The notes below the pieces were generated by a model, which was given only the letters and a program-made list of their open reading frames with translations, made no database searches and had not been told where the DNA came from. This document shows positions 11,601 through 14,659 of a stretch of 34,642 nucleotides of DNA, piece by piece. The DNA comes from Cytophagales bacterium (lineage in GTDB: Bacteria; Bacteroidota; Bacteroidia; Cytophagales; Cyclobacteriaceae). The stretch covers positions 6,558-41,199 of the forward strand of contig JAHEMV010000001.1 of the NCBI GenBank assembly GCA_024643455.1. Direction: 5' to 3'. Each line of letters starts with the position of its first letter. Position 1 is the first letter of the stretch. Both the position numbers and the translations under genes were made by a program.

Positions 11601-12321
11601 AGCCAATACTCAGGATCTCCATATGTGAAATAGAATACCAAAACGCCTCTGTTGTCTGTCCTGATAATGTCCTGCCTGAAGCATCTGTAATTGTCCCAGA
11701 AACCATTACTGGAACTTTCTTATTTCGTTCTTCAAACAATCCGGAAATAGCAAAAAGTGCTGCTTTGGCATTGAGTGTATCGAAAATGGTTTCAACCATT
11801 AGTAAATCAACTCCGCCATCCAGAAGGGCACCTGCCTGTTCTTTATAAATGTCAACCAATTGGTCAAAAGTAATGGCACGGTAACCTGGGTCATTAACGT
11901 CAGGTGAAAGCGATGTTGTTTTATTTGTAGGTCCAAGTGATCCAGCAACAAATCTAGGCTTTAATGGATTTTGATCCGTAATTTCCTTGGCTACCTCTTT
12001 TGCGATTTTGGCAGCCTGAAAATTTAGATCATAAACAACCAATTCAGTTTTATAATCTGCCTGACCGAGGGATGTACCACTAAATGTGTTGGTAAGCAAT
12101 ATATCTGCTCCAGCACGTAGATATTCGCGTTCAATATCTTTTATAATATCCGGTTGGGTGAGAACCAATATATCATTATTCCCCTTTAAAGAACTTGAAT
12201 GATCCTTAAAACGTTCTCCTCTGAAGTCTTCTTCTGAAAGTTTATAATTTTGGATCATAGTACCCATTGCACCATCCAGAATCAGTATTCTTTCTTTTAA
12301 AATTGATTTAATGTCGTTCAA
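8614..12321 (-). CDS. metH: Cobalamin-dependent methionine synthase MetH (start corrected to TTG 12321)
   Basis: MetH transfers a methyl group from 5-methyltetrahydrofolate to homocysteine via cobalamin. All modules are present: homocysteine/zinc domain ([18 protein letters not shown]-type NCALGADMM and [11 protein letters not shown] with zinc cysteines), folate domain ([14 protein letters not shown]), B12 cap and Rossmann domain ([14 protein letters not shown], the cobalamin-ligating His), and the SAM-binding reactivation domain ([12 protein letters not shown]). The ORF track begins at 12435, but that TTG and the next ~18 codons lie inside the SAM-I riboswitch. The next plausible start is TTG at 12321, giving [17 protein letters not shown] and 1235 residues, close to E. 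coli MetH. The next in-frame ATG is inside the catalytic motif. Its stop overlaps that of the J-domain gene. Confidence 0.96.
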
Positions 12322-12381
12322 TTTAATATTGTTTTGATTGTTTTTACTTCCCAGTAGAATCTTAAGAATATAGGCGAGATG

Positions 12382-12474
12382 CTTATCTTTCTTGGTTTTC
12401 CAAGCGGGAATTGGCACCTTTGACCAGGTTGCCAAGACATCTCAGGGCCCGATCCCTCAGTCTTTCTGGATAAG
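12382..12474 (-). ncRNA. SAM-I (S-box) riboswitch aptamer upstream of metH
   Basis: On the minus strand the hallmark elements occur in order: P1 CTTATC, CAGAAAGAC, TGAGGGATCGGGCCC, GGCAACC, GGTGCCAATTCC, and closing GAAAGATAAG. The helices can be drawn by hand. P1 is CTTATC/GATAAG, P2 is AAGAC/GTCTT with kink-turn-like TGA and GA around it, P3 is GGCA and CCT with AGG and TGCC, and P4 is CTTGG/CCAAG with an AAAA loop. In the family, SAM binding turns off methionine and SAM genes, which fits metH. No U-tract terminator follows the aptamer, so control may be translational. Confidence 0.95.
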
Positions 12475-12479
12475 TTTAG

Positions 12480-12487
12480 CAAATATA
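12480..12487 (-). promoter_or_regulatory. Candidate -7 promoter element of the metH riboswitch transcript
   Basis: The minus strand reads TATATTTG, an exact match to the Bacteroidota -7 consensus TAnnTTTG. A start site a few bases downstream would fall at CTAAACTTATC, right at the beginning of riboswitch helix P1, which is where a riboswitch leader should begin. No clear -33 TTTG is seen. This positional fit makes the call better than a bare consensus match. Confidence 0.6.
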
Positions 12488-12544
12488 TTTTATTACTATT
12501 GAAATATTACTATTCCCACTTGAGATCATTTAAATCTCCAATAA

Positions 12545-14659
12545 TTATATCAATTCAACTTGTTCTATTTCCTCCTTAGTCACCGCAAAGAATTTTTTAT
12601 GAACGTTATATTCTGTTTCTGGATCAGATATTTTCACTTCATACGTTCCATCCTCCTTCATCCTATAAGCATTTACATTATCTTTCAAATTGTAATTAAG
12701 AATATTCATTACCTGTTTTTTAAGCAGCGGATCGATGACCATAAATAGTGATTCGATCCTTCTATCAAAGCTGCGAACCATAATATCCGCACTCCCACCA
12801 TAAATTTTAGGATCTCCATCGTTGTGAAAATAATAAATCCTGGAATGTTCTAAATACTCTCCCACAATGGATATCACCTCAATATTTTCACTTAAGCCTT
12901 TCCTGCCTGGACGTAAACTGCATATTCCCCGAACAATAAGTTTAACAGGAACACCGGCTTGAGAAGCTTTGTATAGTTCTTTGATCGTTTCCTTGTCTTG
13001 CAGTGAATTTATTTTTATGATAATACCGCTCTTCAATCCCTTCTTTGCATTTAGCGTCTCTGCTTTGATCAGGTTGACAATTTGAACCCTCATATCTTTA
13101 GGAGCAGTGAGCAAATATTTATATATCCTGGGGATAGAATGCCCTGTAATGGCATTAAAAAACTCAGATACATCGTGAGCATAGATCTCATTGGATGTCA
13201 TAATTCCCCAGTCTGTATATAGTTTTGAAGTAGTTTCATTGTAATTGCCACTGGACATGTGGACATACCTTGTCACTTTTTCACCTTCTTTTCTTACAAT
13301 CAATAAAAGCTTAGTATGTGTTTTTACATCCTGGATTCCATAAATCACAAAGCAACCTGCATCCTGCAACCTTTTTGCTTCTCTCAAATTGTTTTCTTCA
13401 TCAAATCGTGCCTTTACTTCAAAAAGTACGGAAACATGTTTTCCATTTTCAGCGGCTTTTAATAAAGCTGCTGTAACTCGTGAATCATCAGCAAGTCGGT
13501 AAATGGTGATTTTAATAGAAAGTACTTTCGGATCTTCAGCAGAACTTTCAAGTAATTCAAGCAACGGTTCAAAGCTGTTAAAAGGAAGATGCAATAGCAC
13601 ATCCCGCTCTTTTAAAATTTCAAAGATGGTTTCCTCTGACCCAATATCTAGCATAGAAATTGGTTTTACAGGAGGATGGAGCTTGGGTACTTTATTTTTA
13701 AATTCCCGGTGCTTGATTATTTGCCAAAAAGCGGTGTAGTCAAATAAATTGGTCTCTCCTACCTCAAAAATATTTTCATCTTCAAGGTCCCATCGATTTT
13801 TCAGTACCCTGATCATCCAGTTGTTGGGATTCTCATCGACTTCGATACGTACAACTCTACCTGTCTTTCGAGTTTTTAGTTTTCGACGGAGTTCTTCAAG
13901 GAAATTTACGTCAATGTCATCACTTTCATCAAGTGTAAAATCGCCATTTCTGGTAATTCTAAAAAGATTGACGGATTCAATACTAATATTTCTGAATAGC
14001 TTATGAATAAAAGTACGAATAACTTCTTCTATGGTCACAAAAACGAGTTGATCTTCTCTGTTAATCTCGAAAAAACGTGGAAGATTAGTCGGAATCTGAA
14101 TAAACGACAACCTTCTTTTTTCGATCTCATCACGCTGATCTATTGTTACCACTCCAAAAATTAAGAGTTTGTTTACCAACATTGGAAATGTATGGTAGCT
14201 ATCAAAAACCATCGGCGTGAGCATCGGAAAAATGGTCTTTTTAAAGTAATCCTTTACTTTCCCTTTTTCTGTTTCCTTTAACTCATTAAATCTTAATATT
14301 TCAAAGCCATTCTTTTTGAAATTGGGCCGGATTTCATCGATATAGTGAGTAGTCTGCTCCTTAAAAAACTCACGTATTTCCAAAAATAATTTCTTTTTGA
14401 AAGGAATCTCCCGAAGTGTCGAATAGTCAATTCGCTCCTTGCTATAATCGAGGTAGTTATACAAACTACCAACCCTAATCATAAAAAATTCATCGAGGTT
14501 TGAGGAAGTGATGGCCATGAACTTTAGCTTTTCGAAAAAATTTAGTTCAGGTTTTTTTGCCTGATCCAGAACCCGTTGATTAAATTTTAACCAGCTTAAA
14601 TCCCGACTTATAAAATTACTCCTTCCTATTTGAGTTGTTGTGCGATCAGTCACTACCAT
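12545..14659 (-). CDS. ppk1: Polyphosphate kinase 1
   Basis: Ppk1 reversibly makes inorganic polyphosphate from the terminal phosphate of ATP. The 704-residue protein shows the N-terminal PPK signature (ISRDLSWLKFNQRVLDQA and SSNLDEFFMIRVG) and the two phospholipase D-like catalytic halves. The autophosphorylated histidine corresponds to H448 in THTKLLLIVR, followed by HMSSGNYNETTSKLYTDWG. The second conserved histidine is H605 in LEHSRIYYF, and IYGGSADIMVRSFDRR closes the site. Length and motifs are normal. It lies 70 bp after gyrB, beyond a terminator, and is followed by the metH riboswitch. No exopolyphosphatase gene is next to it. Confidence 0.97.
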   Translation of the reverse strand: MVVTDRTTTQIGRSNFISRDLSWLKFNQRVLDQAKKPELNFFEKLKFMAITSSNLDEFFMIRVGSLYNYLDYSKERIDYSTLREIPFKKKLFLEIREFFKEQTTHYIDEIRPNFKKNGFEILRFNELKETEKGKVKDYFKKTIFPMLTPMVFDSYHTFPMLVNKLLIFGVVTIDQRDEIEKRRLSFIQIPTNLPRFFEINREDQLVFVTIEEVIRTFIHKLFRNISIESVNLFRITRNGDFTLDESDDIDVNFLEELRRKLKTRKTGRVVRIEVDENPNNWMIRVLKNRWDLEDENIFEVGETNLFDYTAFWQIIKHREFKNKVPKLHPPVKPISMLDIGSEETIFEILKERDVLLHLPFNSFEPLLELLESSAEDPKVLSIKITIYRLADDSRVTAALLKAAENGKHVSVLFEVKARFDEENNLREAKRLQDAGCFVIYGIQDVKTHTKLLLIVRKEGEKVTRYVHMSSGNYNETTSKLYTDWGIMTSNEIYAHDVSEFFNAITGHSIPRIYKYLLTAPKDMRVQIVNLIKAETLNAKKGLKSGIIIKINSLQDKETIKELYKASQAGVPVKLIVRGICSLRPGRKGLSENIEVISIVGEYLEHSRIYYFHNDGDPKIYGGSADIMVRSFDRRIESLFMVIDPLLKKQVMNILNYNLKDNVNAYRMKEDGTYEVKISDPETEYNVHKKFFAVTKEEIEQVELI

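Follow-up and report, generated by a model that had tools for sequence, protein, structure and literature searches.

The S-box riboswitches of Firmicutes, such as those of Bacillus subtilis, belong to the SAM (RF00162) family, control sulfur and methionine genes, and switch around helix P1. Their antiterminator uses the 3' strand of P1, and their readout is an intrinsic terminator. The nearest studied case to the locus described here is the SAM-I riboswitch of the met operon of Xanthomonas campestris, which acts mainly on translation: a hairpin in the SAM-bound platform holds the start codon, the Shine-Dalgarno sequence is also sequestered, and the platform binds uncharged initiator tRNA (PMC7270179). 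In the strand-exchange riboswitches, a switching strand is common to two mutually exclusive helices, and the ligand blocks the exchange (PMC10907184). According to the sections of the Barrick and Breaker survey drawn on here, platforms that lack a terminator were assigned to translation attenuation by default (PMC2258182).

The window, i.e., the whole stretch of 34,642 nucleotides that was analysed, almost certainly contains a genuine SAM-I aptamer of the ordinary type. A cmscan search matches positions 12476-12380 of the minus strand to the SAM family with 78.3 bits (E = 5.5e-17; curated Rfam cut-off, 44.4 bits), covering all 108 model positions (1-108); no other match reaches its curated cut-off when the window is scanned from end to end with covariance models. 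The first-pass annotation had called a SAM-I riboswitch from hand-drawn core motifs and four helices and had named a covariance-model scan as the check; the high, full-length score confirms the call. In the cmscan alignment, helices P1 to P4 are all paired around the conserved core, with non-standard pairs only at the two outermost P1 positions, and the boundaries first given, 12382 and 12474, are the exact outer edges of P1 (Table 1). By eye, the P2 loop contains CGGG and J3/4 contains CCCG, which are possible pseudoknot partners; in many relatives, also by eye, UGGG occurs together with CCCA. Aptamers of this family bind SAM and reject SAH, and the one here is predicted to do so.

The aptamer occupies the gap between metH and ppk1 (12545-14659, same strand). 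The gene directly downstream, already named as the target, encodes a complete MetH, with the S-methyl_trans and Pterin_bind domains, two B12-binding domains, and the activation domain (Pfam). Its start is likely the UUG at 12321, located 58 nt past the aptamer and 45 nt from the conserved LDGAMGT motif, which is the usual distance; the window has no in-frame ATG between P1 and this motif. Five genus members in total (L114, L117, L118, L121, and L125) appear to have UUG as the metH start. The mechanical list of open reading frames places the start at another UUG, 12435, within the riboswitch, so automatic annotation of metH may be wrong here.

Table 1. Features of the metH locus in the window
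Feature	Coordinates	Strand	Basis
Promoter element TATATTTG, Bacteroidota -7 type	12480..12487	-	Sequence and recurrence in relatives; 3 nt outside the 5' edge of the Rfam match
SAM-I (S-box) aptamer	12380..12476	-	RF00162, 78.3 bits, full length
Strand A, ACUUAUCCAGAAAGA: P1 5' strand, J1/2, and start of P2; partner of the P1 3' strand and of C	12461..12475	-	Rfam alignment; duplex
P1 3' strand, GAUAAG; partner CUUAUC, 12474-12469	12382..12387	-	Rfam alignment
Element C (putative anti-P1), UCUACUGGGAAGU	12346..12358	-	Duplex with A, -9.8 kcal/mol, p = 0.04; family conservation and covariation
Probable metH start codon, UUG	12319..12321	-	No other in-frame option at the distance expected; UUG at the equivalent site in four genus-mates
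metH, cobalamin-dependent methionine synthase, 1235 aa	8614..12321	-	Pfam PF02574, PF00809, PF02607, PF02310, PF02965

Of 64 metH leaders, 23 have an exact TAnnTTTG no more than 22 nt before the aptamer (mean of 1.4 and maximum of 5 in shuffled sequences), and positions -7 and -6 are T in 86% and 77% of these leaders, respectively. This recurrence, together with the position of TATATTTG, places the probable start of the metH transcript at the P1 5' strand, and it bears out the earlier placing of a -7 element at the edge of that helix.

SAM-I aptamers are common in this part of the tree. The genome that contains the window has three copies, and 52 of 59 relatives carry at least one. The 116 SAM-I loci inspected in the relatives include 38 in front of metH and 49 of the metY type, with the rest in front of hom, metX, and other genes (gene names besides metH were assigned by reading the translated open reading frames, without a family search). 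The nearest named MetH proteins come mostly from Bacteroidota (Microscillaceae, Spirosoma, Siphonobacter, Flammeovirga, and Pontibacter); 15 of 23 scanned loci of such proteins have a SAM-I aptamer, which in 14 of the 15 lies within approximately 400 nt of metH. The 2007 reports, in the sections drawn on here, already list SAM-I in Bacteroidetes (PMC2258182, PMC2211319). Given these reports and the 52 carriers, SAM-I is not rare in Bacteroidota, which corrects the emphasis of the first-pass annotation on Firmicutes as the best-known hosts; an aptamer of this kind in this phylum is no surprise. The same sections describe neither a metH platform nor an anti-P1 element.

Some of the loci carry further structured RNAs. 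In four genomes (L268, L271, L278, and L286), the Rfam Flavo-1 RNA (RF01705) is found on the opposite strand between SAM-I and metH; the aptamer there is approximately 300 nt from the metH start, and the anti-P1 element described below is mostly missing. One locus has a SAM-I/IV aptamer downstream of metH (L047:8734-8829). In another, a SAM-II aptamer (L067:3378-3437) shares a 14-kb stretch with a SAM-I aptamer; the 2007 survey reported no species that has both (PMC2258182).

A side-by-side comparison of 38 metH leaders reveals a recurring motif, e.g., CUUUCUNGAUAAG, approximately 15 to 50 nt past P1. This motif and the aptamer 5' strand CUUAUCNAGAAAG, which comprises P1, J1/2, and P2 positions, are reverse complements of each other. 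When the first 18 aptamer bases were paired with the leader and the duplex energy was compared with dinucleotide shuffles, 33 of 37 metH leaders gave p <= 0.05, with a mean z of -3.7; the reversed-strand control gave a mean z of only -0.5. In a set enlarged with loci from the order and the phylum, 60 of 80 metH leaders were significant, as were 54 of the 64 with a start within 150 nt (simple base shuffles in both cases). The same duplex test was significant in only 2 of 49 metY leaders and in none of 29 others from the same genomes; an anti-P1 element as a general feature of SAM-I in these genomes is thereby rejected.

The two strands also covary. Swapping partners among the 54 significant leaders raises the mean energy from -14.9 kcal/mol for own pairs to -12.0 kcal/mol, and none of 5000 permutations reaches the observed sum of -804.6, the best of them giving -718.2. 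In a masked-position test, one aptamer position was hidden at a time and the base opposite was then read. Over all positions, 257 of 294 were complementary (238.9 expected, sd 2.4). At J1/2 position 9, the count was 23 of 26 (A:U 10, C:G 9, G:C 4) versus 10.6 with shuffled partners; kinship among the sequences somewhat inflates these counts, but the three types of pair recur in different families. Position 9 is unpaired in the aptamer, so that aptamer pairing cannot explain the match, which indicates covariation of the A:C helix itself. P1 and the A:C helix need the same 5' strand and are therefore mutually exclusive. At the family level, one strand is thus shared by two such helices; for the window alone, p = 0.04. 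The metH leaders of this family very likely possess a conserved strand-exchange platform, judging from these sequence comparisons.

This arrangement differs from the use of the P1 3' strand in the Firmicutes antiterminator, as here P1 5' strand, J1/2, and P2 positions are captured by a downstream copy. It shares with the strand-exchange group the logic of one strand and two helices (PMC10907184) but differs in that the shared strand would lie right at the start of the transcript, while the invader imitates the P1 3' strand and reaches on into J1/2 and P2. The open-access papers searched do not describe the metH element, and the novelty is therefore provisional. The platform is apparently undescribed so far.

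On balance, the favored reading is that the riboswitch represses metH at high SAM by strand exchange on the P1 5' strand, the direction of control being assumed from metH biology. Binding of SAM would lock P1 and leave C free, whereas without SAM, C would invade and the aptamer would unfold. Once released, C, which is rich in pyrimidines, and the sequence beside it might pair with or crowd the start region and reduce initiation, with neither a Shine-Dalgarno sequence nor a terminator involved. Bacteroidota do without Shine-Dalgarno sequences, and structure in the start region tunes initiation (PMC6847099), which makes gating of the start region a reasonable readout. Inspection by eye finds no Shine-Dalgarno-like stretch before the UUG in CAAAACAAUAUUAAAUUG, whereas the Xanthomonas campestris riboswitch hides both a Shine-Dalgarno sequence and an AUG.

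Thermodynamic folds, which leave out co-transcriptional order and tertiary contacts, predict a start-region access of 0.50 with P1 locked versus 0.63 in the anti-P1 state, with 44 of 53 leaders changing in that direction. The predicted change exceeds that obtained with shuffled tails (0.129 versus 0.065, p = 0.0047; 53 leaders), and C pairs with the start region more than in shuffles (7.2 versus 4.6, p = 0.00014; 53 leaders). The effect is individually significant in only 7 to 11 of the 53 leaders, and that of the window is not among them: its predicted access is alike in the two states (0.65 versus 0.66), and its C-start pairing is not above shuffles. The pairing can be drawn clearly in L141, L117, and L214; in L141, CACUCUUUC pairs with GAAGGAGUG, which includes the GUG start. 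As a fixed motif, C-start pairing was rejected (only 6 of 37 leaders at p <= 0.05 in the first test) and was kept as a group tendency. From these models, the chances that start-region gating is the readout are about even for the family and less than even for the window.

The same strand exchange might instead be read out by Rho-dependent termination or RNase attack, as SAM-locked P1 would leave the leader between P1 and metH single-stranded and accessible, whereas without SAM it would be tied up in the A:C helix. In keeping with this, metH has no intrinsic terminator, and across the family the stretch from P1 to element C has a high C content (32% C, 16% G). Taken whole, however, metH leaders are no richer in C than metY leaders (23% C and 16% G versus 21% and 15%), Rut-like C-richness is weak in the leader of the window (17% C, 10% G), and the excess of C-start pairing would be left unexplained. 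This readout is considered unlikely.

The preferred reading, strand exchange that frees C to act on the start region, depends in this genome on a copy of C that is weaker than most. In the window, AGA (12463-12461) pairs with UCU (12358-12356), UCCAG (12470-12466) with CUGGG (12354-12350), and ACUU (12475-12472) with AAGU (12349-12346). The helix, with blocks of 4, 5, and 3 pairs, is among the weaker ones of the family. C is located 23 nt before the start, versus 18 to 25 nt in genus-mates, and carries CUGGG where they carry CCGAU or CCGGU. It is a weaker, diverged copy of the element; twelve pairs at the homologous position, formed by other bases, suggest that the pairing has been kept while the sequence drifted. 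When the leader is folded without ligand as far as 30 nt beyond the start, its minimum-free-energy structure is the anti-P1 fold (-44.7), 10.6 kcal/mol below the best P1-locked fold. A strand-exchange platform is probably present in this window, as far as can be judged from its sequence. The first-pass annotation had anticipated another regulatory mode for a leader with no visible terminator; this expectation now has a concrete candidate, the anti-P1 helix that covaries across Bacteroidota metH leaders, and the leader is not platform-less.

Alternatively, the aptamer could be intact and the platform decayed or moved in this genome, leaving weak control or some other structure, such as pairing of AUCCAGAA with metH codons. 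The weak A:C helix (-9.8 kcal/mol at the p value given above) and the absence of a start-region effect in the window fit such decay, as does the unconstrained minimum-free-energy fold of a longer stretch, in which AUCCAGAA pairs with the codons "UUCUGGAU", approximately 14 codons into metH. The latter pairing is not kept in genus-mates and was rejected as due to chance, whereas the A:C pairs, seemingly maintained with other bases, and the ligand-free minimum described above argue against decay, which is judged improbable.

Ordinary transcription attenuation of the Firmicutes S-box kind, through an intrinsic terminator, is used elsewhere in the same genome: the SAM-I leaders of hom (homoserine dehydrogenase) in this genome (L115) and in two genus-mates (L119 and L122) have canonical intrinsic terminators, e.g., AAATCTCTTCTGACTAAGAAGAGATTTTTTTTT, that of L115 being a hairpin followed by T8. 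At metH, the search for terminator-like hairpins gave no sites in 12200-12600, as the first-pass annotation had noted by inspection, and such sites occur in only 6 of 64 metH leaders (2.0 expected), where they are weak. Control of metH by this route is very unlikely. Least likely of all is an incidental A:C complementarity, for example one left over from an aptamer duplication or due to a shared abundance of pyrimidines. C does resemble the P1 3' strand and has many pyrimidines, but at the family level the composition shuffles, the reversed-strand control, the partner swap, and the match at an aptamer-unpaired base in the masked-position test contradict this reading.

Since the hom leaders end in terminators, one genome uses at least two, and probably three, SAM-I platforms. 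A broader version of the strand-exchange reading is offered tentatively, with somewhat less than an even chance of being right in full: a metH-specific platform throughout Bacteroidota, in which the aptamer 5' strand is captured by a downstream sequence that imitates the P1 3' strand and that, once released by SAM, closes the start directly without a Shine-Dalgarno sequence or a terminator, the same genome using a terminator at hom, a leader ORF at metY, and anti-P1 at metH. Such a platform bears on how riboswitches control translation where, as in this phylum, Shine-Dalgarno sequences are not used. A leader with neither a terminator nor a Shine-Dalgarno sequence may still hold a platform, and an element that covaries with defined partners and recurs in dozens of species, several of them from the cultured genera Spirosoma, Pontibacter, Hymenobacter, and Pedobacter, can be tested by compensatory mutation.

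The metY leaders and most other non-metH leaders have a different layout: an AUG approximately 8 to 10 nt past the aptamer opens an ORF of 20 to 50 codons (examples are L164, L199, L203, L191, L159, L195, and L113, the metY leader of the genome that contains the window). At least 3 Cys residues are found in the last 10 codons of this ORF in 37 of 78 non-metH loci from 28 genomes (0.12 in shuffled sequences) and in none of 38 metH leaders. The Cys runs are often CCCCC or longer, as in L199 (...APCCCCCWCC, stop) and L203 (...MRMCCCCCCC, stop). No description of SAM-I combined with a poly-Cys ORF was found in the open-access literature, and its novelty is likewise provisional. From its sequence, the arrangement looks like a cysteine leader-peptide attenuator preceded by SAM-I, which could sense SAM and cysteine one after the other. 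In the genus of the window, the ORFs of metY-type leaders (L113, L116, L120, L123, L126, and L127) have no long Cys run and end in an R-x-M-x-x-C type of motif (RRMRYC, RHMPYC, RSMQYC, RCMCCC, RCMRCS, and RPMRCC), followed by a conserved GGCAAAGAGTGACCCTGCACT; the ORF of L113 ends in ...EYRRMRYC.
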